This document shows positions 31,655 to 59,849 of a DNA stretch of 64,000 bases, piece by piece; position 1 is the stretch's first letter, and each line of letters opens with the position of its first letter. The stretch comes from Opitutaceae bacterium (lineage in GTDB: Bacteria > Verrucomicrobiota > Verrucomicrobiia > Opitutales > Opitutaceae). Both the position numbers and the translations under genes were made by a program. The stretch lies in NCBI GenBank assembly GCA_027482185.1, contig JAIXWF010000013.1:1240001-1304000 (forward strand). The letters run 5' to 3'. The notes beneath the pieces are model-generated. The model worked only from the letters and a program-made list of their open reading frames with translations. It searched no databases and was not told the DNA's origin.

Positions 31655-31780
31655 GACAGATGGAAAGCGGTCCGTCAAGGCCGGGCTGGGGCGGTCCCCG
31701 CCAAATCGCCGGCGTGGTCCGCGGGGCAGCGCAGGGAACGGAGGCCGGCTGGGCAGCCGCAGTGGCGCCTGCCAGGAGGT

Positions 31781-31882
31781 TTGAAAATCAGCGCGAAGAG
31801 GGCTGAACAGGCCGGCAGACCCCGAAAAGCAACGACTTAGGAAAAATCAGCGCCGTTGCGGCAATTTGAGAAGGAATCAGCC
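31781..31882 (+). repeat. Putative transposase-binding repeats at the prophage left end
   Basis: AAAATCAGCGC occurs at 31784-31794 and again at 31843-31853, and a related GAATCAGCC lies at 31874-31882. Each is embedded in an A-rich block in GC-rich surroundings. Three same-orientation, unevenly spaced sites recall the L1-L2-L3 transposase sites of Mu. The first copy begins just after a TG at 31782-31783, which fits the TG terminus of Mu-type elements. Confidence 0.45.
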
Positions 31883-31985
31883 AATCCGGGCCGGAATGAC
31901 AGAGGTTTGATAAAAATCCCGGTTCGCGGCCGCGGTGGGACAGCGGATGACCCACCCATCGGGTATCGTGAGCAGCGTTCCACTC

Positions 31986-33391: not shown

Positions 33392-33850
33392 TCAGAACGG
33401 CTGGCCTTCGGCCGGTGCCAGCTGCTTCGCGCGCCGGCCAAGGATGCCGGCAACCTTCTCGAGATCGCGCTCGGTCAGGTCCCCCCAGCTCCGGCCTTTC
33501 AAAAAGTTCTTCAGGTAGGCGCCGAGCGCCTCCTCGCCGCCTTCGATTCCGCAGGCCTCGGCCAGCTGCGCAATTCGGGCGTGCAACGCGCGCAGCCGTG
33601 CCTCGGGCTGGTCGAGCTGGCGCATCTGAGCGTCGAGATTGCCGCCGTCCCACACCGCGCGGAACGCCGCGATGACCTTGTCGAGGTCGGGATTCGTCAG
33701 GCTTTTCGAGGATTTGTCGCGCCCGAGTGCCTTCACGTGCAGATCGTGCCGCTTCTGGTCGGCGGCCTCGTGCGTCAAACCGCGACCGATGTAGTAGGTC
33801 CGGGCGCGGCCCCACTCCCACCAGTACTTTTTAGTTTGCGCGGCGTTCAT
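33392..33850 (-). CDS. GemA-like early phage protein (Mu gp16 type, tentative)
   Basis: 152 codons. The layout, with basic N-terminal helices, LDKVIAAFRAVWDGGNLDAQMRQLDQPEARL in the middle and YLKNFLKGRSWGDLTERDLEKVAGIL at the end, recalls the gemA/DUF1018 regulatory proteins of Mu-like phages. The match is judged by eye and is not firm. Its place near the distal end of the early operon also fits gemA in Mu relatives. Confidence 0.5.
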   Translation of the reverse strand: MNAAQTKKYWWEWGRARTYYIGRGLTHEAADQKRHDLHVKALGRDKSSKSLTNPDLDKVIAAFRAVWDGGNLDAQMRQLDQPEARLRALHARIAQLAEACGIEGGEEALGAYLKNFLKGRSWGDLTERDLEKVAGILGRRAKQLAPAEGQPF

Positions 33851-34159: not shown

Positions 34160-34398
34160 ATCGTCGTCTCCCGCAGCCAGGCGTTGTAACGCTTCACCAA
34201 TTCTTCCGGCGTCTTCGCTTTGGCCCATACCGTCCGCCCGAATTTGATTTGGTAGCCGCGTTTCGAACTCGAGATCGTCACGCTCTGGGGGCCTCTACGA
34301 CCGTAGCTGAGGCAGCCGATAATCAAGGCGCAGGCCTCGGAACAAAGCCCGATTGCATCAGGGGTTGCGTACGGAGATGATTTCTTGGGTTTGCTCAT
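34156..34398 (-). CDS. Hypothetical small phage protein
   Basis: 80 codons beginning MSKPKKSS, overlapped with the methyltransferase stop as ATGA. The C-terminal half (SVTISSSKRGYQIKFGRTVWAKAKTPEELVKRYNAWLRE) looks like a small mixed alpha/beta domain. No known family. Confidence 0.55.
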   Translation of the reverse strand: MSKPKKSSPYATPDAIGLCSEACALIIGCLSYGRRGPQSVTISSSKRGYQIKFGRTVWAKAKTPEELVKRYNAWLRETTI

Positions 34399-35270
34399 TT
34401 GGAAAAATATCGCTGCACCTCGCGGCCGACCCATTCGGCAACCGGGACGCTGACGCCGAGGCCAATCATTCGATAGGCGTGCGCGTCCGAGCATCCGAAT
34501 CGGAAGGTGTCCGGGACACCTTGGAGCCGCGCGTACTCACGAACCGAGTACGGACGCACGCCATGCGGAAAACGGCGGTCGGCTAGGAGCCGGGTGCCCC
34601 GGTCTTTGTGGTAGTGCGCGACGCACGTCGGCGCCACGTCGTCACGCGCCGGGTCGCTGATGATCGGGCGGTCGCGGTACTTACCTTTGAGGCGTTTGAT
34701 GACGTACGGCGGGATGTGGACGGTCGGCTCCGCCTCGACGATCTCGCGGAGGCGCACACGGCGTTTTACTTCCGGTGCGCGCCAGGAAAACGGGCGGCGC
34801 GAGCCCAAAATGATCAGCCGGTCGCGCCGCTGCGGAAGCCACAGCTCGCTCTTCACCGGACATTCGACGTGCACATAGTATTCCGGCAGATGCGTCATCG
34901 CTTCCATCACGACGGGGAACTTCCGCATTCCAGGAACGTTCTCGACGACGTAGACCTCGGGCCGGCGGATCGCGAGGTGCCGAAAGAAGTGGAGAAACAG
35001 GTCGTCGCCACTTCGGGTACCGTGCAGATCCGCGGCGCTGGAGTAGTGGTTGCACGGGTAGGTCGCCACCATGACGTCGCATTCCGCGTCTGCCGCGACG
35101 ACCTTCTCCCGCAGATCGCACTCGCGTACGGGATGGCTGAAATTGAGCCGGTGATTCGCCACGCACGCCCGGTCGATCTCGAAGCTCTCCTGTAGGTGAA
35201 GGCCGGCGTTGCGCAGCCCGATTTCCATCAGGCCCGTGCCGGCGAAGTAGCTGTTTACGACCGGACTCAT
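34395..35270 (-). CDS. DNA (cytosine-5-)-methyltransferase
   Basis: A 291-residue C5-cytosine methyltransferase. Motif I is FAGTG (residues 9-13), motif IV has the catalytic P72-C73 in ATYPCNHYS, motif VI E110-N-V, motif VIII QRRDR (147-151), and motif X is in GLGVSVPVAEWVG. It is short for the family, so the target-recognition region must be small. No matching endonuclease gene is adjacent, so it is probably a solitary methylase protecting phage DNA. It is coupled by ATGA to the ASCH gene upstream. Confidence 0.9.
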   Translation of the reverse strand: MSPVVNSYFAGTGLMEIGLRNAGLHLQESFEIDRACVANHRLNFSHPVRECDLREKVVAADAECDVMVATYPCNHYSSAADLHGTRSGDDLFLHFFRHLAIRRPEVYVVENVPGMRKFPVVMEAMTHLPEYYVHVECPVKSELWLPQRRDRLIILGSRRPFSWRAPEVKRRVRLREIVEAEPTVHIPPYVIKRLKGKYRDRPIISDPARDDVAPTCVAHYHKDRGTRLLADRRFPHGVRPYSVREYARLQGVPDTFRFGCSDAHAYRMIGLGVSVPVAEWVGREVQRYFSK

Positions 35271-35692
35271 GGCTGCCAGCGGATCAATTGGCCGTGGAAA
35301 TCAAGGTGGAGTCCGAAGGGCGTTCGCTTCGCGTAGGTGGAAGCGAAGAACTCGTAGAACTCCTCGGCGCTTGAGAATCCGTCCGCCTTGGCCAAGGCCT
35401 CGACTGCAGCAGATCCGATTCCCGCGGAATCGTAGCCAAGGCAAACGTTGGTGATCCGAAAGGAGCGCCCCTCTTTTACGCTGACGTTAATCGGCTGCTT
35501 CTCGCAGACCATCGACTCGCGCAGCTTCCTTTGTTTCGAGCGGTAGGGCAGACCGATCCACGCCCGCAAATCCGCAATATCACCGGTATCGATCATGCGT
35601 GCCCGCCACGGCCGGATCGTCTGGAGCTTTTGCCCCGACTCAACCAGCGCGGCGAAGCGCGGCTGAAACATGATGACGTGGCGCTTGCTCAC
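35267..35692 (-). CDS. ASCH-domain-like protein
   Basis: 141 codons from a GTG that overlaps the upstream stop (GTGA). The N-terminus MFQPRFAALVESGQKLQTIRP then GDIADLRAWIGLPYRSKQRKL follows the pattern of ASCH/PUA-like small proteins of phages, in which the first strand and the KxxTIR motif line a nucleic-acid groove. Iyer and colleagues proposed ASCH domains as readers of modified bases. Here it is directly coupled to a cytosine methyltransferase gene, which fits that idea. Domain call by eye. Confidence 0.65.
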   Translation of the reverse strand: MSKRHVIMFQPRFAALVESGQKLQTIRPWRARMIDTGDIADLRAWIGLPYRSKQRKLRESMVCEKQPINVSVKEGRSFRITNVCLGYDSAGIGSAAVEALAKADGFSSAEEFYEFFASTYAKRTPFGLHLDFHGQLIRWQP

Positions 35693-36177
35693 GATGATTG
35701 CAGGGCCGTTGCACACACCGCCCGCAGGGTTCCGACGCGGGCGGCGAAGGCCGCGCTGGTGTCGCACTGGTCGCGGACCGAATCGACCGCGTGAATCACG
35801 GTGCCGTGGTCGCGCCCGAACAGGTCGCCGATCACTGCCAGCGGCGCGTTCGTGAGTTCCCGCGCCAGCGCGAAGGCAACCCGGCGGGCCGTGGCGAGCG
35901 GTTCGCTGCGGTCGCGCGCGGCGAGGTCCTCGACCGTCACGCCGAAATCGCCGGCCACCACGGCCGCAACTTTCCGCACGCTCTCGGCGTTGCTCAGGTC
36001 CGGATGCAGCCACGCCCAAGCTTCGGCTAGGGCCGCCGGACGGTTGATCGCGCCGAGATCGTGCGCGCGTTTTCGCAGCTCGTAGCCGTGGGGATACACG
36101 AGGGCGAATCGGTCGCCGTCCTGGACGATGGCACAGTTGCGCAGGGCGAGCGCTTGTTCGAGTTCGGCGGTCGTCAT
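35689..36177 (-). CDS. Phage protein with DnaA domain IV-like DNA-binding region
   Basis: A 162-residue protein. The C-terminal part reads ATARRVAFALARELTNAPLAVIGDLFGRDHGTVIHAVDSV; the RDHGTVIHA segment (122-130) matches the DnaA signature GRDHTTVxHA that recognises DnaA boxes. There is no AAA+ domain, so it is only the DNA-binding module of an initiator, fused to about 85 residues of unknown N-terminal sequence. It may compete with or recruit the host replication system at DnaA boxes (inference). Confidence 0.75.
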   Translation of the reverse strand: MTTAELEQALALRNCAIVQDGDRFALVYPHGYELRKRAHDLGAINRPAALAEAWAWLHPDLSNAESVRKVAAVVAGDFGVTVEDLAARDRSEPLATARRVAFALARELTNAPLAVIGDLFGRDHGTVIHAVDSVRDQCDTSAAFAARVGTLRAVCATALQSS

Positions 36178-36813: not shown

Positions 36814-37125
36814 TTACCGGCGGGGGGATTGGTTCGCGCGGCGCAGGATCAGGTCCGCCCAGTCCTGGGCGACCGCGGCGACGTCGATCAACTCCGCGAG
36901 CAGCTTCGCCTCGTCGTCTTCGCAGGCGACTTCGGCGACCTCTTCGCGCAGGATCTGGAAGTAGGTCACGGTGCCGTTGCGCATACCGGCATCGGTCTCC
37001 TTCTGGGCAGCATCGCGCTTCCGCTTGCGGCGTTCGGTCGGGCCGGTGCCGTCGGGCCAGTTCTGTTCGCCCCACTTGAGGCGGTTCTTTTCGCGGCGGA
37101 GCCGCGTGAGCAGTTCCGCGGTCAT
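36814..37125 (-). CDS. MazG-like nucleotide pyrophosphohydrolase-related protein (tentative)
   Basis: 103 codons. The segment ILREEVAEVACEDDEAKLLAELIDVAAVAQDW matches the EExxE...ExxD metal-binding helices of MazG-like all-alpha pyrophosphatases, of which phages often carry small forms. The N-terminus is basic. ATGA overlap with the Gam-like gene upstream. Confidence 0.55.
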   Translation of the reverse strand: MTAELLTRLRREKNRLKWGEQNWPDGTGPTERRKRKRDAAQKETDAGMRNGTVTYFQILREEVAEVACEDDEAKLLAELIDVAAVAQDWADLILRRANQSPRR

Positions 37126-37679
37126 TCGACGGAGCCGGGAGCCTGCGCGCCCTCCTTGAGGATCTTCGCCACGAGCTTGTCGACCGCGGTATCGGCCGAC
37201 TTCACGACGACCATTTCCCCGGTTCCCTCCATGCGCACGCCCAGCTTGGCGAGATCGCGCGCGTCGAGGTTCTTCAGGGCGTCGGCCGAGGGCTTCTCTT
37301 CGACGATGACGAGCAAGTCGGCCTGGTCCGGCAGGTGTTTGCGGATCAACGCGACGACCTTGGCGTCGTCCTCCCAGTTCAGTTTGCCGGCGCCCTTGCG
37401 GAACCCGACCGTGATGCCGTGCAGCGTGAACGTCTTCGGCTTCTCGAAGAGGTGCGGCGCCGCTTCGACGGTGTTGCGCAGCTCGGCGCCGATGGTGGCG
37501 GCGTTGGCGGCCGCTTCCTTGATGCCGGCCATGTGTTTGCGCTGCAGCGCGGCGACTTCGGCTTCGAGTTCGCCGACGCGCTTTGAGAGCGTTTCGCGGG
37601 CCTTGGCGTAGCGTTTGGCCAGCGTGTCGATTTCGGCGAGGCTGGTTTCGGTGGCGGGACGGGACGGGAATGCGATCAT
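37122..37679 (-). CDS. Host-nuclease inhibitor Gam-like protein
   Basis: 185 codons beginning MIAFPSRP. A long coiled coil (about 20-75) is followed by the KTFTLHGITVGFRKGAGKLNWEDDAKVVALIRKHLPD block and EKPSADALKNLDARDLAKLGVRM, closely matching Mu Gam, which binds DNA ends and blocks exonucleases. Standard early gene of Mu-like phages. ATGA overlaps on both sides. Confidence 0.88.
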   Translation of the reverse strand: MIAFPSRPATETSLAEIDTLAKRYAKARETLSKRVGELEAEVAALQRKHMAGIKEAAANAATIGAELRNTVEAAPHLFEKPKTFTLHGITVGFRKGAGKLNWEDDAKVVALIRKHLPDQADLLVIVEEKPSADALKNLDARDLAKLGVRMEGTGEMVVVKSADTAVDKLVAKILKEGAQAPGSVE

Positions 37680-39099: not shown

Positions 39100-40248
39100 T
39101 CAGACGGCCTTCCGCGCGCTCAGGGTGTCGTAGCTGGCTTGGACGGCGATGACGTCGGCCCAGGTGAGCGCGCGCGGATCGGGCTTCGCTTTGCGGGCTC
39201 GGATATTCCCGTCCTTGAAGACCGACACCAAGTGTTTCACGCCGGCGTTGTAGGCGATGTGCTCGCTGACCTTCAGGCCTTCGAACATCGGGTGCGCGGC
39301 ATTGAGCCGCTTCCAGGTGTCGTCGCCGGTTTCCGGCGCGGCCGGGAAGTCGAGGCCGTAGGCGGTGGCGAAGGCGCGCACGTCGCCGACCCGCAGCGCC
39401 TCGGGCAACTGCAGCTTGATCGTGCCGCGGCGCCAGAGCTGCTTCATCAGCTTCGCCTCGTGCCCGCGGCCCTCCTCGAATTCCTCGCGGGCGACGTCGG
39501 TCGCGCAGATCACCATCGCGCAGCCGGTCTTGTCTTTGATGGCCTTCAGGGCGTTCACCATCTTGATCGCGCCGCCCTTCTGGTAGGCGTAGGTGATGTG
39601 GTGGAACTCGTCGACGATCACGAGATTCGTGCGGTCGATTGCGTTCATGACCCGTACCGCGAGCTTGTTCGGCGAGACGTTCGGGCTGATCCGGAGCGCG
39701 CGGGCGAAGGCGCGGTAAATGTCCTGCACGCCACCGACGCCCTGCAGGTCCACGTAGATCGTCGCGCCGTGGTTGTTTTCGTCGCGGAACCAGACGAGCG
39801 CCTCGGTCTTGCCGATGTGCGACTCGCCGAAGACGAACGCAATGCTCTGGTCGGTCCACGCCTTCCGGCAGACCGCGTGGATCTCCGCGACGGTCGGCGT
39901 CATGACGCGGCCCTTGTTCCGGCCCTCGGCGTTCTCCCGTTCCTGCGTCCTGACGACACGGATACGGGAAAGCATCTTGGCCGGCGGCGGGAGGAGCAGC
40001 CCTTCGGCGTTGCGGTACTCGCCGCGGAAAACCTTGCTGTAGGTGCCGCCGTCGACGCCGAGCACGCGCGCGGCCTCGGCCTGCGACATGTCTTTCTCGC
40101 CGCTGTACCGGTACCACCAGCGCAGGTCCTCGTGGTACTCCGGCTTGTGCTTGCGGATGCCGGCTTCGACGATGTCGCCGGCGAGGTTCGTGCCGTTCCA
40201 CTCGGAAGTGTCGGCGGGTTGTTGGTTCTGGGAATCGCTGTCTGCCAT
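39100..40248 (-). CDS. MuB-like transposition ATPase
   Basis: A 382-residue AAA-type ATPase that in Mu chooses the target DNA and activates the transposase. An N-terminal helix-turn-helix (DMSQAEAARVLGVDGGTYSKVFRGEY, about 53-78) precedes Walker A G141-E-S-H-I-G-K-T148 and Walker B LVIVDEFHH (209-217). Mu B likewise has an N-terminal HTH domain. It follows the transposase gene by 43 bases. The open frame extends upstream into the transposase gene, but homology starts at MADSDSQN. Confidence 0.85.
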   Translation of the reverse strand: MADSDSQNQQPADTSEWNGTNLAGDIVEAGIRKHKPEYHEDLRWWYRYSGEKDMSQAEAARVLGVDGGTYSKVFRGEYRNAEGLLLPPPAKMLSRIRVVRTQERENAEGRNKGRVMTPTVAEIHAVCRKAWTDQSIAFVFGESHIGKTEALVWFRDENNHGATIYVDLQGVGGVQDIYRAFARALRISPNVSPNKLAVRVMNAIDRTNLVIVDEFHHITYAYQKGGAIKMVNALKAIKDKTGCAMVICATDVAREEFEEGRGHEAKLMKQLWRRGTIKLQLPEALRVGDVRAFATAYGLDFPAAPETGDDTWKRLNAAHPMFEGLKVSEHIAYNAGVKHLVSVFKDGNIRARKAKPDPRALTWADVIAVQASYDTLSARKAV

Positions 40249-40291: not shown

Positions 40292-42415
40292 TCAGTCCTC
40301 GGAGAGGTCGGCGAGGGCTTCGCCGGCCGCGCTTGCGGAGACCCCGCGTTCGGCGCGGGCAGCGGCCTTGGCTTCGGCGCGGGCCGCGTTGTCGGCGACC
40401 GCGTTGACGATCTGCTTCGCGCCGGTGGCGGCGCGGTGCTCGGCCGCGATGGCTTCGTTGTGCGCGCGGTCGACGGCGAGCTGGGCGTCCTTGTCGGCAT
40501 GGCGCTCGCGCAGTTCGGCCACGGCCCGGTTTACAATCGTGGCCTGCACGGCGCCGGCTTGCTTGAGCGCGTCCTTGTCGCGGAGATCGACCGCCCCGCG
40601 TTTGCCGCCGAGGCGGGACAGGGAGCCGGCGTAGGCGCCCTTGAGGTCGGCGAGGTGGAGCTGTTCGGGCTGCGCGGTGTCGAAGTAGCCGAGGAATTCG
40701 GTGCCGTCCGCCACACCGCGGAGGACGTCGCCCTTCGTGTCGACGTAGGTGTAGGCGACCTTGTCGTGCGCGAACGTGACCTGGTGGTTGCGGTACGTGA
40801 CGCGCTTCGGTGTCAGGAGCAGCAGCGCCAGCACCGCGGGCGGGATCGGCCGCAGCGGGCACGTGGCGGCGAGGCGCGACCAGCGTTCAATCGGCGCCTC
40901 CATCCGCTGCACGACCTGGACGTGCGGCTGCTGCTCCACCGGCACAAGGGCCAGCTCCGAGAACGGCCGCGGGTCGCCGCCCTCTTCGAGGAGAAATTCC
41001 GTGACCTGGTCGAAGCCCAGATACTTGTGATCCGTGCGGGCGTCCTGCGCGGCGCAGGCCCACGCAAACGCGCGCTCGACGGCCTCCGGCGACGGGAACG
41101 GCAGGCGCAGCAACGCGATCTTTTCGGGCGGCAGGTTGAGCGCCTTTTCGCCCTGGCCGAGGAAGAGCTTCGTGTAGGCGATGGCGTCGTCGAGTCCCGC
41201 CGGGGAATTGAGGCGCTGGTTGGAGCCCTTGTAGCCGGGCATCCCGCCGAGCTTGTTCCAGAGCCCGTTGAACGCGGATTCGATCCAGCCTTTTTCCCAC
41301 GGTTTGCCGCCGCGTTCGCAGAAGCCGTTCGTCAGCGTCTTGTGGTTGATCAGGCCGGTCCGCTCGACCCGCACCCGGCCGTCGAACATCGTGGACAGCG
41401 CCAGCTCCAGCTCGGCCGAGATCGCGGCCGTCGCGTTTTCGCAGAGGATCGTCACGGTGTACTCCGGCAGGCCGAACTTCGCGAAGAGGCCGTGGAGCAG
41501 CGTCTGCACGTCGATGCGCCGGATGCCGCAACGCACCAACTTCGTGCTGCCGTCGGGCTGCTTTTCCTCGCGCGTGACCTGGGCGCCGATGCCCCAGACA
41601 AGGTTCCTGCGGGTGCCGACATCCTTCGCCAGGAGCCCGGCCACCGGCGCAATCTGCGGCGCGGTTTTCCCGTCGCCGGGGAAGACGCACAGGCAATCGA
41701 GGTTGAAGTCGTCGATGACGATCAACTCGAACGGACGCAGGCCGGACGGGTCGCGGGTGACGCTCGGGAAGTAACGTTTCGCGGCGGCGAGACCGCGTTG
41801 AATGAGCACGCGCGCGCCCTTGTTCGGGGCTTTCCGGTAGAGGTTGCGCTTGCTCCAGCCGACCGGGAAGAACCCGCGCGGGCAGGTTTTCGGAAGCGGG
41901 TGGGTCGGGTAGGTCTTCGCGTAGTACTCGATCCAGTTGCCGTATCCGGGCACGGGTTGGCCGCTCGGCCAGATCTCGGTGCGGAGCAGCTCCCACGCTT
42001 CCGCCATGCTGCGGTGGTTGTCTTCCGCGAGCCGCTTCACGAATTCGACGAACTCCTCCGGCTGCGCGTTCGGCCCCTTGTAGTTCTTCACGAGCACCCG
42101 CCAGTTGCCGGCCGGGTGGGTATCCGTCACCGAGCCGAGGAAGGCGTAGTACTTCCGCAACAGCGACGGCGCCGAGCAGCCGGCCATCTGGTGCCGGTGG
42201 TTGGCCGCGATCACCTGGGCGGCGACCGTCACGTTGCCCTCGCCCCGCAGCGCGTGCAGCTGCTCCAGCCGGCGCAGGAAGAACTGCACCTCCGTACGGC
42301 GCGCCTCCGGCAGCGCGGAGTACTCCGCCATGTCGTCGAGCGGGACCGAGAAGCGCGGTCCGTTGACCAGCGCGGCGGATTGGGACGGGGAGACGGTGAC
42401 GGCGGTGCTGCTCAT
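40292..42415 (-). CDS. MuA-like DDE transposase
   Basis: A 707-residue transposase of the rve-integrase type, similar in length to MuA (663). A DNA-binding N-terminal half is followed by the catalytic core: D235/D236 in LIVIDDFNLD as first acid and E379 in KGWIESAFN as last, spaced as in the family. The segment where the second Asp is expected reads ILCENATA, with Glu326 in place of Asp. The C-terminal 150 residues are helical, charged and alanine-rich, as in the domain III of MuA that contacts MuB. It leads the transposition pair in the early operon. Confidence 0.85.
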   Translation of the reverse strand: MSSTAVTVSPSQSAALVNGPRFSVPLDDMAEYSALPEARRTEVQFFLRRLEQLHALRGEGNVTVAAQVIAANHRHQMAGCSAPSLLRKYYAFLGSVTDTHPAGNWRVLVKNYKGPNAQPEEFVEFVKRLAEDNHRSMAEAWELLRTEIWPSGQPVPGYGNWIEYYAKTYPTHPLPKTCPRGFFPVGWSKRNLYRKAPNKGARVLIQRGLAAAKRYFPSVTRDPSGLRPFELIVIDDFNLDCLCVFPGDGKTAPQIAPVAGLLAKDVGTRRNLVWGIGAQVTREEKQPDGSTKLVRCGIRRIDVQTLLHGLFAKFGLPEYTVTILCENATAAISAELELALSTMFDGRVRVERTGLINHKTLTNGFCERGGKPWEKGWIESAFNGLWNKLGGMPGYKGSNQRLNSPAGLDDAIAYTKLFLGQGEKALNLPPEKIALLRLPFPSPEAVERAFAWACAAQDARTDHKYLGFDQVTEFLLEEGGDPRPFSELALVPVEQQPHVQVVQRMEAPIERWSRLAATCPLRPIPPAVLALLLLTPKRVTYRNHQVTFAHDKVAYTYVDTKGDVLRGVADGTEFLGYFDTAQPEQLHLADLKGAYAGSLSRLGGKRGAVDLRDKDALKQAGAVQATIVNRAVAELRERHADKDAQLAVDRAHNEAIAAEHRAATGAKQIVNAVADNAARAEAKAAARAERGVSASAAGEALADLSED

Positions 42416-57850: not shown

Positions 57851-58012
57851 ATGCCCGCGTCCTCCAAACCCGTCGCGGCCTCGCGCACGTCGACCTTCAA
57901 GTACAAGCCGCAGTTCGGCGTCATCGTCGTTTGCAAGGACGAGCGCGACCAGGCGCGCGTCTACAACCAGCTCCGGCGCGGCCCGCGCAAGGTGAAGGTG
58001 GTCACCGTATGA
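57851..58012 (+). CDS. 53-residue conserved-looking protein before the ABC-acetyltransferase gene
   Basis: 53 codons from ATG, one base after the previous stop; its TGA overlaps the next ATG as ATGA. The product is basic, with the segment YKPQFGVIVVCKDERDQARVYNQL and the end RKVKVVTV, forming a plausible beta-alpha-beta unit. I recall small proteins of this type adjoining ABC/GNAT genes in other phages, but I cannot confirm it here. It is likely part of the cassette that follows. Confidence 0.6.
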   Translation: MPASSKPVAASRTSTFKYKPQFGVIVVCKDERDQARVYNQLRRGPRKVKVVTV

Positions 58013-59151
58013 AGATCTCCGTCGCGCATTCCTGCCGGGATTTCGACAGCTACCGCGCTGCCCGTGTGAAGTCCCTGTTCAACGTCGAGAGCGGCTGTGA
58101 ATTCCGCCGCGAGTTCGACCTGCCGTTCACCGCGGACTGGAAGCTCGGGGTCATCGTCGGGCCGTCCGGATCTGGAAAGACGTCGTGCGGCGCGCGGATC
58201 TTCGAAGGCGTGCCGATCCACGATCTCCGGGCCGATTGGCCGGAGCGCAAACCGATCATCGACGCCATCGCGCCTGCCGGCTCGTTCGATGCCGCCACGG
58301 CCGCGCTCTCCGCCGTCGGCCTTGGCGACGTGCCGGCGTGGCTGCGGCCGTTCCATGTCCTCTCGAATGGTGAACAATTCCGCGCCGGACTCGCGCGGGT
58401 GCTGTGCGACGCGCCGGCCCGTGTCGTCATCGACGAGTTCACGAGCGTCGTCGACCGGCAGATTGCCAAGATCGGCGCCCACGCTTTCGCCAAGGCGTGG
58501 CGACGAACCTACAAGCAGCAGGCGGTGCTGCTATCGTGTCACTACGACATCCTGGAGTGGATCGAACCGGACTGGGTGCTCGACACCGCGACCGGCCGTT
58601 TCACGGAAAGGGGTCTTTGGCGACGCCCGCGCTTCGAGCTCTCGGTACATCAAACCGATTGGCGATTTTGGCCCATGTTTGAGCCGCATCACTATCTGAA
58701 GCTCCCGCGGATGATCGCGGCCTCCTGCTACGTCGGCACTGTCGACGGGGAGCCGGTGTGCCATGTCGCCGTGTCGCCGAAATTCCAGACCGGCCACATG
58801 CGGGCCTGCCGCCTGGTCGTCATGCCCGAGTGGCAGGGCGCCGGGGTCGGCACGCGGTTCCTCGACGCGGTGTGCGAGCACCAGCTGAAGGGCGGCAACC
58901 GCTGGGGCCGGAAATGCATGACCCTTTTCCACACGTCTCACCCCGGCTTGGCGGCGGCTCTGCGGCGCTCGCCGCGTTGGGTTCAGACCTCGGCTGTGCT
59001 CTTCGGCGGGAACAAGCTGAAGAGCGCGCAGAGCATCGAAGCGGCGCGCCTCCGCGACGGCCGCAAGGGCGTCGGCACCGGCTACGGCGGCCACTTCCGC
59101 GCCGTGCAAGGGTTCAAGTACATCGGCGCTGCGGAGGGCATGCAGAACTGA
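58009..59151 (+). CDS. ABC-type ATPase fused to GNAT acetyltransferase
   Basis: 380 codons. The N-terminal half is an ABC ATPase: Walker A GPSGSGKT (51-58), signature LSNGEQ (118-123), Walker B VVIDEF (139-144) and H-loop H178. No membrane partner exists, so it is not a transporter. The second half (about 225-380) is a GNAT domain with VVMPEWQGAGVGTRFL as acetyl-CoA loop. Such fusions have been linked to DNA modification of the Mom type, since Mu Mom itself has the acyltransferase fold. Coupled to the 53-aa gene by ATGA and to the formyltransferase by TGATG. Confidence 0.85.
   Translation: MKISVAHSCRDFDSYRAARVKSLFNVESGCEFRREFDLPFTADWKLGVIVGPSGSGKTSCGARIFEGVPIHDLRADWPERKPIIDAIAPAGSFDAATAALSAVGLGDVPAWLRPFHVLSNGEQFRAGLARVLCDAPARVVIDEFTSVVDRQIAKIGAHAFAKAWRRTYKQQAVLLSCHYDILEWIEPDWVLDTATGRFTERGLWRRPRFELSVHQTDWRFWPMFEPHHYLKLPRMIAASCYVGTVDGEPVCHVAVSPKFQTGHMRACRLVVMPEWQGAGVGTRFLDAVCEHQLKGGNRWGRKCMTLFHTSHPGLAAALRRSPRWVQTSAVLFGGNKLKSAQSIEAARLRDGRKGVGTGYGGHFRAVQGFKYIGAAEGMQN
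59099..59112 (+). repeat. Partial copy of the 17-base repeat
   Basis: GCGCCGTGCAAGGG matches the first 14 bases of the repeat at 32414 and 51928. It lies near the end of the ABC/acetyltransferase gene. Confidence 0.5.
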
Positions 59152-59849
59152 TGCGCGTGGTGCTCACAGGCCAGAAGCGGTTCGGCGCCGACGTGCTGCG
59201 GCTTCTCATGGAGCGCGACGACGAGGTGCTCGGCGTGTCGTGCCCGGCAAAGGATGCCGAGGGCAACCCGGACAAGCTGTGGATCGCCGCGCAAAACGCC
59301 GGCGTGCGCCTCATCCAGGGCGGCAAGCTCACCCAGTACACGATGCCCGAGGGCGCGGACCTGATCGTGGCCGCACACTCGCACGACTTCGTCGGGGCGG
59401 TGACGCGGCGCAAAGCGCGCCTCGGCGCCATCGGTTTCCACCCGTCCGTCCTGCCGCGGCATCGCGGCCGCAGCGCCATCGAATGGGCGATCCGCTTCGG
59501 CGAACGCGTGACCGGCGGCTCGATCTACTGGCTCAACGACGTCGTCGACGGCGGACCGATTGCCGCCCAGGAGCACTGCATGATCCGGCCCGACGACACG
59601 GCGTTGTCGCTCTGGATTCGCGAGCTGGCCCCGATGGGCCTGCGTCTGTTCCGCCAGGTGCTGCGCGATCTCGACCGCGGTCTCGTCATCGCCATCGACC
59701 AGGACAAAGACCTCGCGACGTGGGAGCCGGCAATTGAAGGCGTGCCGCGTTTGCACCGCCCGGACCTCCCGATGCTGGGCGGCCCGGCGGATTTCGTGGT
59801 GATCAAGAGCCGCGAAGAGGCGGACAAACGGAAGGAGCGGTCGGCATGA
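59151..59849 (+). CDS. Formyltransferase-family protein
   Basis: 232 codons. GFHPSVLPRHRGRSAIEWAIRFGERVTGGSIYWLNDVVDGGPIAAQE is the core of the formyl_transf_N fold, with the catalytic His and Asp (DVVDGGPI). The Asn of the usual N-x-H-P motif is replaced by Gly (G-F-H-P), as in the hydrolase domain of 10-formyl-THF dehydrogenases, which lack it too. It may transfer or remove a formyl group, perhaps on a DNA base or an intermediate. There is no tRNA-binding domain, so it is not Met-tRNA formyltransferase. Confidence 0.8.
   Translation: MRVVLTGQKRFGADVLRLLMERDDEVLGVSCPAKDAEGNPDKLWIAAQNAGVRLIQGGKLTQYTMPEGADLIVAAHSHDFVGAVTRRKARLGAIGFHPSVLPRHRGRSAIEWAIRFGERVTGGSIYWLNDVVDGGPIAAQEHCMIRPDDTALSLWIRELAPMGLRLFRQVLRDLDRGLVIAIDQDKDLATWEPAIEGVPRLHRPDLPMLGGPADFVVIKSREEADKRKERSA

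Follow-up and report, generated by a model that had tools for sequence, protein, structure and literature searches.

Free-standing proteins that carry domain IV, the DNA-binding domain of the DnaA initiator, are already annotated in many phages. The protein described here, P0001, has matches in BFVD to 36 models at E <= 0.001, and 24 of the best 50 are named 'Chromosomal replication initiator, DnaA C-terminal'. HTVC010P-related phages have a 'DnaA' in common, according to the accessible part of PMC6811365; the main text of PMC6813254 does not name DnaA. Among the annotated phages, two Pelagibacter phages have a lone DnaA-like gene that follows genes for a nuclease and for single-strand annealing, and a Rhizobium phage carries one beside DUF1376. 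Virus records with cellular-looking DnaA (two Salmonella by name and an Acinetobacter record, in which DnaA is encoded beside dnaN, recF, and gyrB) are apparently mislabelled bacterial contigs.

The DnaA residues contacting bases are, in E. coli numbering, R399, P423, D433, H434, T435, and H439, as given in the available text of PMC7561715, and variation in the helix of P423 probably does not determine box recognition among the proteins studied in PMC5043019, in the part of that paper at hand. For the setting of such a domain in the early operon of a Mu-like phage, no description was found in the open-access literature, as far as its accessible texts go; these yielded neither a paper on a Mu-like phage that encodes such a protein nor a functional test of a lone phage DnaA DNA-binding domain.

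The P0001 gene and its Mu-like setting

The window, i.e., the whole 64,000-nucleotide stretch of Opitutaceae DNA that was analysed, contains a Mu-like prophage whose left end lies near 31.77 kb (Table 1). The right end is outside the window, at about 73900 to 75000 in window coordinates, and homology with a related virus contig continues to 73890. The early operon, on the minus strand, comprises genes for a MuA-like transposase, a MuB-like ATPase, an acetyltransferase, Gam, P0001, a C5 methylase, and a GemA-like protein; the P0001 gene thus shares its strand with MuA, MuB, and Gam and lies downstream of them. The preliminary description had called the gene phage-coded and part of an early operon, and the MuA, MuB, Gam, GemA, and C5 methylase neighbours bear this out. 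The host genome encodes its own complete DnaA elsewhere.

Table 1. Location of P0001, its domains, and the neighbouring prophage features (window coordinates)
Feature	Coordinates	Strand	Basis
CDS P0001, free-standing DnaA domain IV protein, 162 aa	35689..36177	-	ORF list, Pfam, PDB, predicted structure
Bac_DnaA_C domain, P0001 residues 68-134	35776..35976	-	Pfam; whole-genome search (G000:C3:1275776-1275976)
N-terminal orphan domain, P0001 residues 1-62	35992..36177	-	predicted structure, 58-61 % identity in two relatives
MuA-like transposase (PHROG 310)	40292..42415	-	PHROG match
MuB-like DNA transposition protein (AAA_22, PHROG 296)	39100..40248	-	Pfam, PHROG
Mu Gam-like end-protection protein	37122..37679	-	Pfam, PHROG
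C5-cytosine methylase	34395..35270	-	Pfam, PHROG
GemA-like protein	33392..33850	-	Pfam E 1.2e-4, below gathering cut-off
Prophage left end region	31770..31913	.	homology with related virus contig reaches here

The late genes (terminase, portal, protease, head) are on the plus strand, the early (minus) and late (plus) genes of the prophage being divergent over window positions 32432-64000; in phage Mu, early and late genes run one way. The MuA-like transposase has no tblastn match at E 1e-5 among 50,697 phage records, and MuA-like matches are present in five of the five virus records queried. The C5 methylase gene, two genes downstream of P0001, has homologues (60-78 %) also in the Mu-like loci L133, L145, and L148, where no DnaA domain IV gene was found. 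Among the late genes, window positions 58009-59849 (+) encode an ABC-type ATPase fused to GNAT (PHROG 11143, E 1e-150) and, directly after it, a protein resembling formyl transferases (Pfam Formyl_trans_N, E 1e-19); the pair may perhaps be a Mom-like DNA modification unit.

The P0001 reading frame runs on the minus strand from an ATG at 36177 to a stop at 35689 (162 codons). A longer reading from a GTG start would give 268 aa; the ATG is favoured since two relatives, one in the related virus contig (L003) and one in a prophage of genome G122, align with P0001 from their own Met over nearly the full length. P0001 is 60-61 % identical to the L003 protein, whose gene order is kept, and 51-52 % identical to that of the G122 prophage.

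The match of P0001 to DnaA domain IV is far above chance. Bac_DnaA_C (PF08299) is matched at E 4.2e-19 with 68.8 bits, exceeding the curated cut-off of 31.5, and positions 2-69 of the 69 of this Pfam profile are covered. Among solved structures P0001 is nearest in sequence to DnaA proteins, the best phmmer match in PDB being E. coli DnaA domain IV (1j1v, E 4.9e-11), and the recognition helix RDHGTVIHA occupies residues 122-130. A lone DnaA domain IV protein had been proposed at this place, and the Pfam match, the 1j1v match, and the helix together confirm it. The proposed absence of an ATPase domain also holds, with neither AAA+ (domain III) nor DnaA domain I matched in P0001 by Pfam or NCBIfam; hits by the DnaA models of NCBIfam are confined to the domain IV region, and the score with the DnaA initiator model TIGR00362 (68.4 bits) is below its cut-off of 343.9. 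PADLOC gives no defence-protein match for P0001.

An AlphaFold2 model of P0001, based on 18 aligned lone proteins, has a mean pLDDT of 92.9. By Foldseek the model agrees with two DnaA structures solved with box DNA: the DNA-binding domain of the M. tuberculosis protein (3pvp), at 0.7 Å over 89 columns, and domain IV of the E. coli protein (1j1v), at 0.8 Å over 86 columns. An earlier reading of P0001 overlooked the existing annotation of comparable lone proteins in other phages, and also the orphan N-terminal domain, in which residues 1-57 are predicted to form an alpha-beta-beta-beta-alpha arrangement. This domain has no PDB match at E <= 0.001, and its identification with DnaA domain I or with any solved fold was rejected on that account; the best weak fold matches, at E 0.1 or worse, include dsRNA-binding proteins. 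Of 372 genomes of the order, three contain a sequence match to it: its own genome, G122, and a third one weakly, at E 6.7e-4.

Distribution, selection, and ancestry

Besides the two close relatives, more distant copies lie downstream of MuB in six loci (L004, L013, L015, L041, L042, and L044), and in L045 the lone DnaA gene is situated beside other genes of this phage type; L017 is an exception, with the gene upstream of a MuA match. No conserved partner gene adjoining the lone DnaA gene was noticed among the compared loci. In 11 of 16 viral loci with a lone DnaA protein there is no MuA or MuB match in the stretch examined, and the confinement of such proteins to Mu-like phages was therefore rejected. 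L043:5989-10729, in a stretch of another genome that also bears an integrase, has a lone DnaA domain IV gene between ParB/DUF5131 and a primase-like gene. The number of lone copies in the 150 genomes searched is a lower bound.

A MuB-like match at E 1e-15 is present in 35 of 252 genomes of the host family. Of the 46 MuB places listed, 26 are strong (E 1e-50 or better); the examination covered 25 strong places, the 26th being at a contig edge, and none of the 20 weaker ones. Five of the 25 strong loci carry the lone DnaA gene; the other 20 are without it in the stretch examined, which is short in L140 (5.3 kb), L149 (2.6 kb), L148 (8.5 kb), and L143 (9.8 kb). Two of the 25 loci, both in G239, are near-copies. 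The lone DnaA gene is thus a recurrent but accessory early gene of divergent Mu-like phages and, given the 20 loci without it, not essential to their lifestyle.

The pN/pS ratio of the P0001 frame is 0.46 against L003 and 0.53 against G122, and that of its neighbours is lower (MuB 0.32, methylase 0.28). Judged by these ratios, the reading frame is under purifying selection, weaker than that on MuB or the methylase. That P0001 is a dispensable passenger of a variable early region, with little effect, is considered unlikely: the minority of strong MuB loci with the gene (5/25) and the raised pN/pS relative to MuB and the methylase speak for it, but purifying selection on P0001 persists and several divergent Mu-like phages have the gene in their early region. 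The two parts of the protein differ in this respect. Against L003, pN/pS is 0.56 in domain IV and 0.40 in the N-terminal part; against G122 the values are 0.64 and 0.40, domain IV being 45 % identical and the N-terminal part 61 %. The conserved business of P0001 may, on this pattern, reside in the N-terminal domain.

In a tree of 39 domain IV sequences, the DnaAs of 19 host-family genomes together with those of E. coli and B. subtilis are on one side of a branch with 97/91 support and the lone proteins are on the other, several of them on long branches; of the 36 inner branches of this tree 22 are weak, and some rows are long. A recent capture from a host DnaA is rejected for this sample by the 97/91 branch, and the P0001 gene is therefore not a fresh copy of the host gene.

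Recognition residues, DnaA boxes, and possible roles

P0001 keeps four of the six E. coli contact residues: R399 (R90), D433 (D123), H434 (H124), and H439 (H129). At the T435 position it has G, as does the host DnaA, and at the P423 position A. Its recognition helix RDHGTVIHA is letter-identical to that of the host DnaA, in which two glycines precede RDH, one of them missing from P0001. The 18 aligned lone proteins are those left of 23 after exclusion of the near-duplicates L005, L007, L008, L010, and L018, and all 18 share one residue in each of the columns of R399, R407, H434, and T436; since the 16 viral relatives were collected by peptide patterns that include DHGTVIHA, the conservation of columns 123-130 is partly built in. 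The same four columns are invariant in all seven rows free of the motif filter (P0001 and six others), where conservation of the contact columns is modestly above random (529 of 20000 random column sets are as conserved). D433 is replaced by H or Q in 2 of the 18 proteins and H439 by Y or C in 3. The contact stretches are closer to P0001 than domain IV as a whole, with 83 vs 64 % identity in L003 and 55 vs 45 % in G122.

The preliminary description had also suggested that P0001 could capture the host replication machinery, with DnaA boxes to be sought within the phage. In the window TTWTNCACA occurs twice, vs 0.51 expected (a count reached in 7 of 100 shuffles), one of the two sites, at 58925, being inside the prophage; TTATCCACA with one mismatch occurs four times, vs 1.97 expected (reached in 9 of 100 shuffles), twice inside the prophage. 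A matrix built from 57 host-family boxes, with the threshold set by choice at 72 % of the top score, gives no site in this phage or in either of two relatives; with 0.2-0.3 sites expected in each, this absence is at chance level and no sign of avoidance. At the host dnaA stretch the matrix finds two sites by construction, as the same boxes helped build it, and a third host box is below the threshold. Summed over 13 stretches that surround other lone proteins, TTWTNCACA has 9 occurrences, vs 9.3 expected, and forms no clusters; L041 and L045 have one each, with 0.2 or fewer expected. With no boxes above chance in this phage or the two relatives, the presence of DnaA boxes in the phage was rejected, and capture of host replication through them finds no support: judged by this consensus, the phage DNA is not organised as a target for a protein that reads DnaA boxes.

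These counts also bear on P0001 as a phage replication initiator, or as a recruiter of the host replisome to phage DNA. Lone DnaA-like genes do lie in replication or recombination regions of other phages (Pelagibacter, Rhizobium) and in L043; nevertheless, no DnaA-box cluster is found in this phage or in the 13 stretches, no DnaA domain I or AAA+ was found in P0001, and replication should, with MuA and MuB present, proceed by transposition. Such a role is regarded as improbable.

In the host, the box just upstream of dnaA is TTATTCACA in 18 of 19 chosen host-family genomes and TTATTAACA in one, and two further boxes lie ca. 300 bp upstream in a conserved block in these 19 genomes. TTATTCACA occurs twice in the 6.4-Mb host genome, once at dnaA. 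Upstream of the host dnaA (L049:6160-6520), the block conserved in the 19 genomes contains three boxes, mostly TTATNCNCA, TTRTTCACA, and TTATTCACA; it is perhaps the oriC or dnaA control region of the family. A block of host initiation at oriC by P0001, the other suggestion of the preliminary description, is compatible with the shared recognition helix and with the boxes upstream of the host dnaA.

The reading put forward, tentatively and with less than even confidence, is that P0001 is an early-region double-strand DNA-binding protein of a Mu-like phage that reads host DnaA boxes in trans and dampens initiation or dnaA expression. P0001 would read the same 9-bp sites as the host DnaA, with TTATTCACA / TTGTTCACA as candidate boxes, and would act in trans at a few host sites, above all the boxes upstream of the host dnaA. 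As it has neither the ATPase nor domain I, it would sit on boxes but open no origin, and in the lytic phase this occupation would dampen dnaA expression or the initiation of host replication. Mu-type replication proceeds by transposition followed by PriA-type restart and is not known to use DnaA boxes; the phage would on that ground be unharmed. The N-terminal domain would provide a second contact, e.g., dimerisation or a partner. In favour of this reading are the domain IV match and fold, the contact residues kept in P0001 and the lone proteins, the closer likeness of the contact stretches, the boxes near the host dnaA, the lack of matrix sites in three phages, and the place of the gene downstream of MuA, MuB, and Gam. 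Against it speak the faster change of domain IV than of the N-terminal part, the altered contact residues of some relatives, the missing glycine before RDH, the modest conservation of the contact columns in the seven unfiltered rows, the chance-level nature of the box absence, and the 20 strong MuB loci without the gene. Action in trans on the host oriC or dnaA seems to fit somewhat better than capture at phage boxes, and altered specificity would be nearly as likely.

That last alternative, somewhat less favoured and likewise short of probable, is a DnaA fold retargeted to another sequence and controlling phage genes or transposition. It would agree with the lack of a DnaA-box excess in the phage and its relatives, with the split of the lone proteins from the sampled host DnaAs (97/91) and the long branches of several of them, with the faster change of domain IV than of the N-terminal part, and with the variation of contact residues in some relatives. 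There is also a precedent in the TnpA-REP transposase-like proteins, whose subgroup 2.1.2 has Bac_DnaA_C-like domains and in which the flanking repeats of subclass 2.1 are unlike DnaA boxes, according to the accessible part of PMC6006769. Against retargeting stand the RDHGTVIHA letters of P0001, the same as in the host DnaA, and the failure to identify an alternative site among the 20 largest of at least 60 repeat families in 31000-64000. If P0001 reads host boxes, its expected motif is TTATNCACA; another motif would be expected if it is retargeted.

More doubtful than any of the foregoing is a combination in which an old, non-host DnaA-box reader of transposable phages would mark the host origin in trans, either silencing oriC during replication by transposition or steering insertions to, or barring them from, the vicinity of the origin, and its N-terminal domain would contact the transposition machinery or a host factor.

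Comparison with known systems

P0001 resembles DnaA domain IV (PF08299; 1j1v, 3pvp) in its fold, over about 86-89 columns at 0.7-0.8 Å, and in the equivalents of R399, R407, D433, H434, T436, and H439. It differs in being free-standing, without AAA+ or domain I, in having an N-terminal domain of its own, and in the G at the T435 position, found also in the host DnaA. The PRK06030 models (NF004688 and NF004687; profiles of 123 and 140 positions) match its domain IV region at E about 1e-5, but P0001 is not a member of that family, as its score of 25.5 bits falls short of both cut-offs (136 and 181). The PRK06030 proteins are presumably alphaproteobacterial.

With respect to the role favoured here, that of reading host boxes in trans, a described counterpart is YfdR, which is encoded by a cryptic prophage in E. 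coli and has been linked to a restraint on initiation at the host oriC; it binds the DnaA protein itself, and its abstract states no resemblance to a DnaA domain (PMC4776307). The role of lone DnaA domains can be addressed cleanly in a Mu-like phage, because its replication should need no origin, and an effect on the host oriC or dnaA, if real, would point to host takeover and not to phage initiation.

The nearest likeness in architecture is to the 'Chromosomal replication initiator, DnaA C-terminal' proteins of uncultured Caudovirales phages and to the DnaA-like proteins of Pelagibacter phages, which are also short and consist of a lone domain IV. In the annotated phages examined, however, the lone DnaA gene is located in a replication or recombination region, whereas that of P0001 belongs to a Mu-like early operon and codes for a different N-terminal domain.
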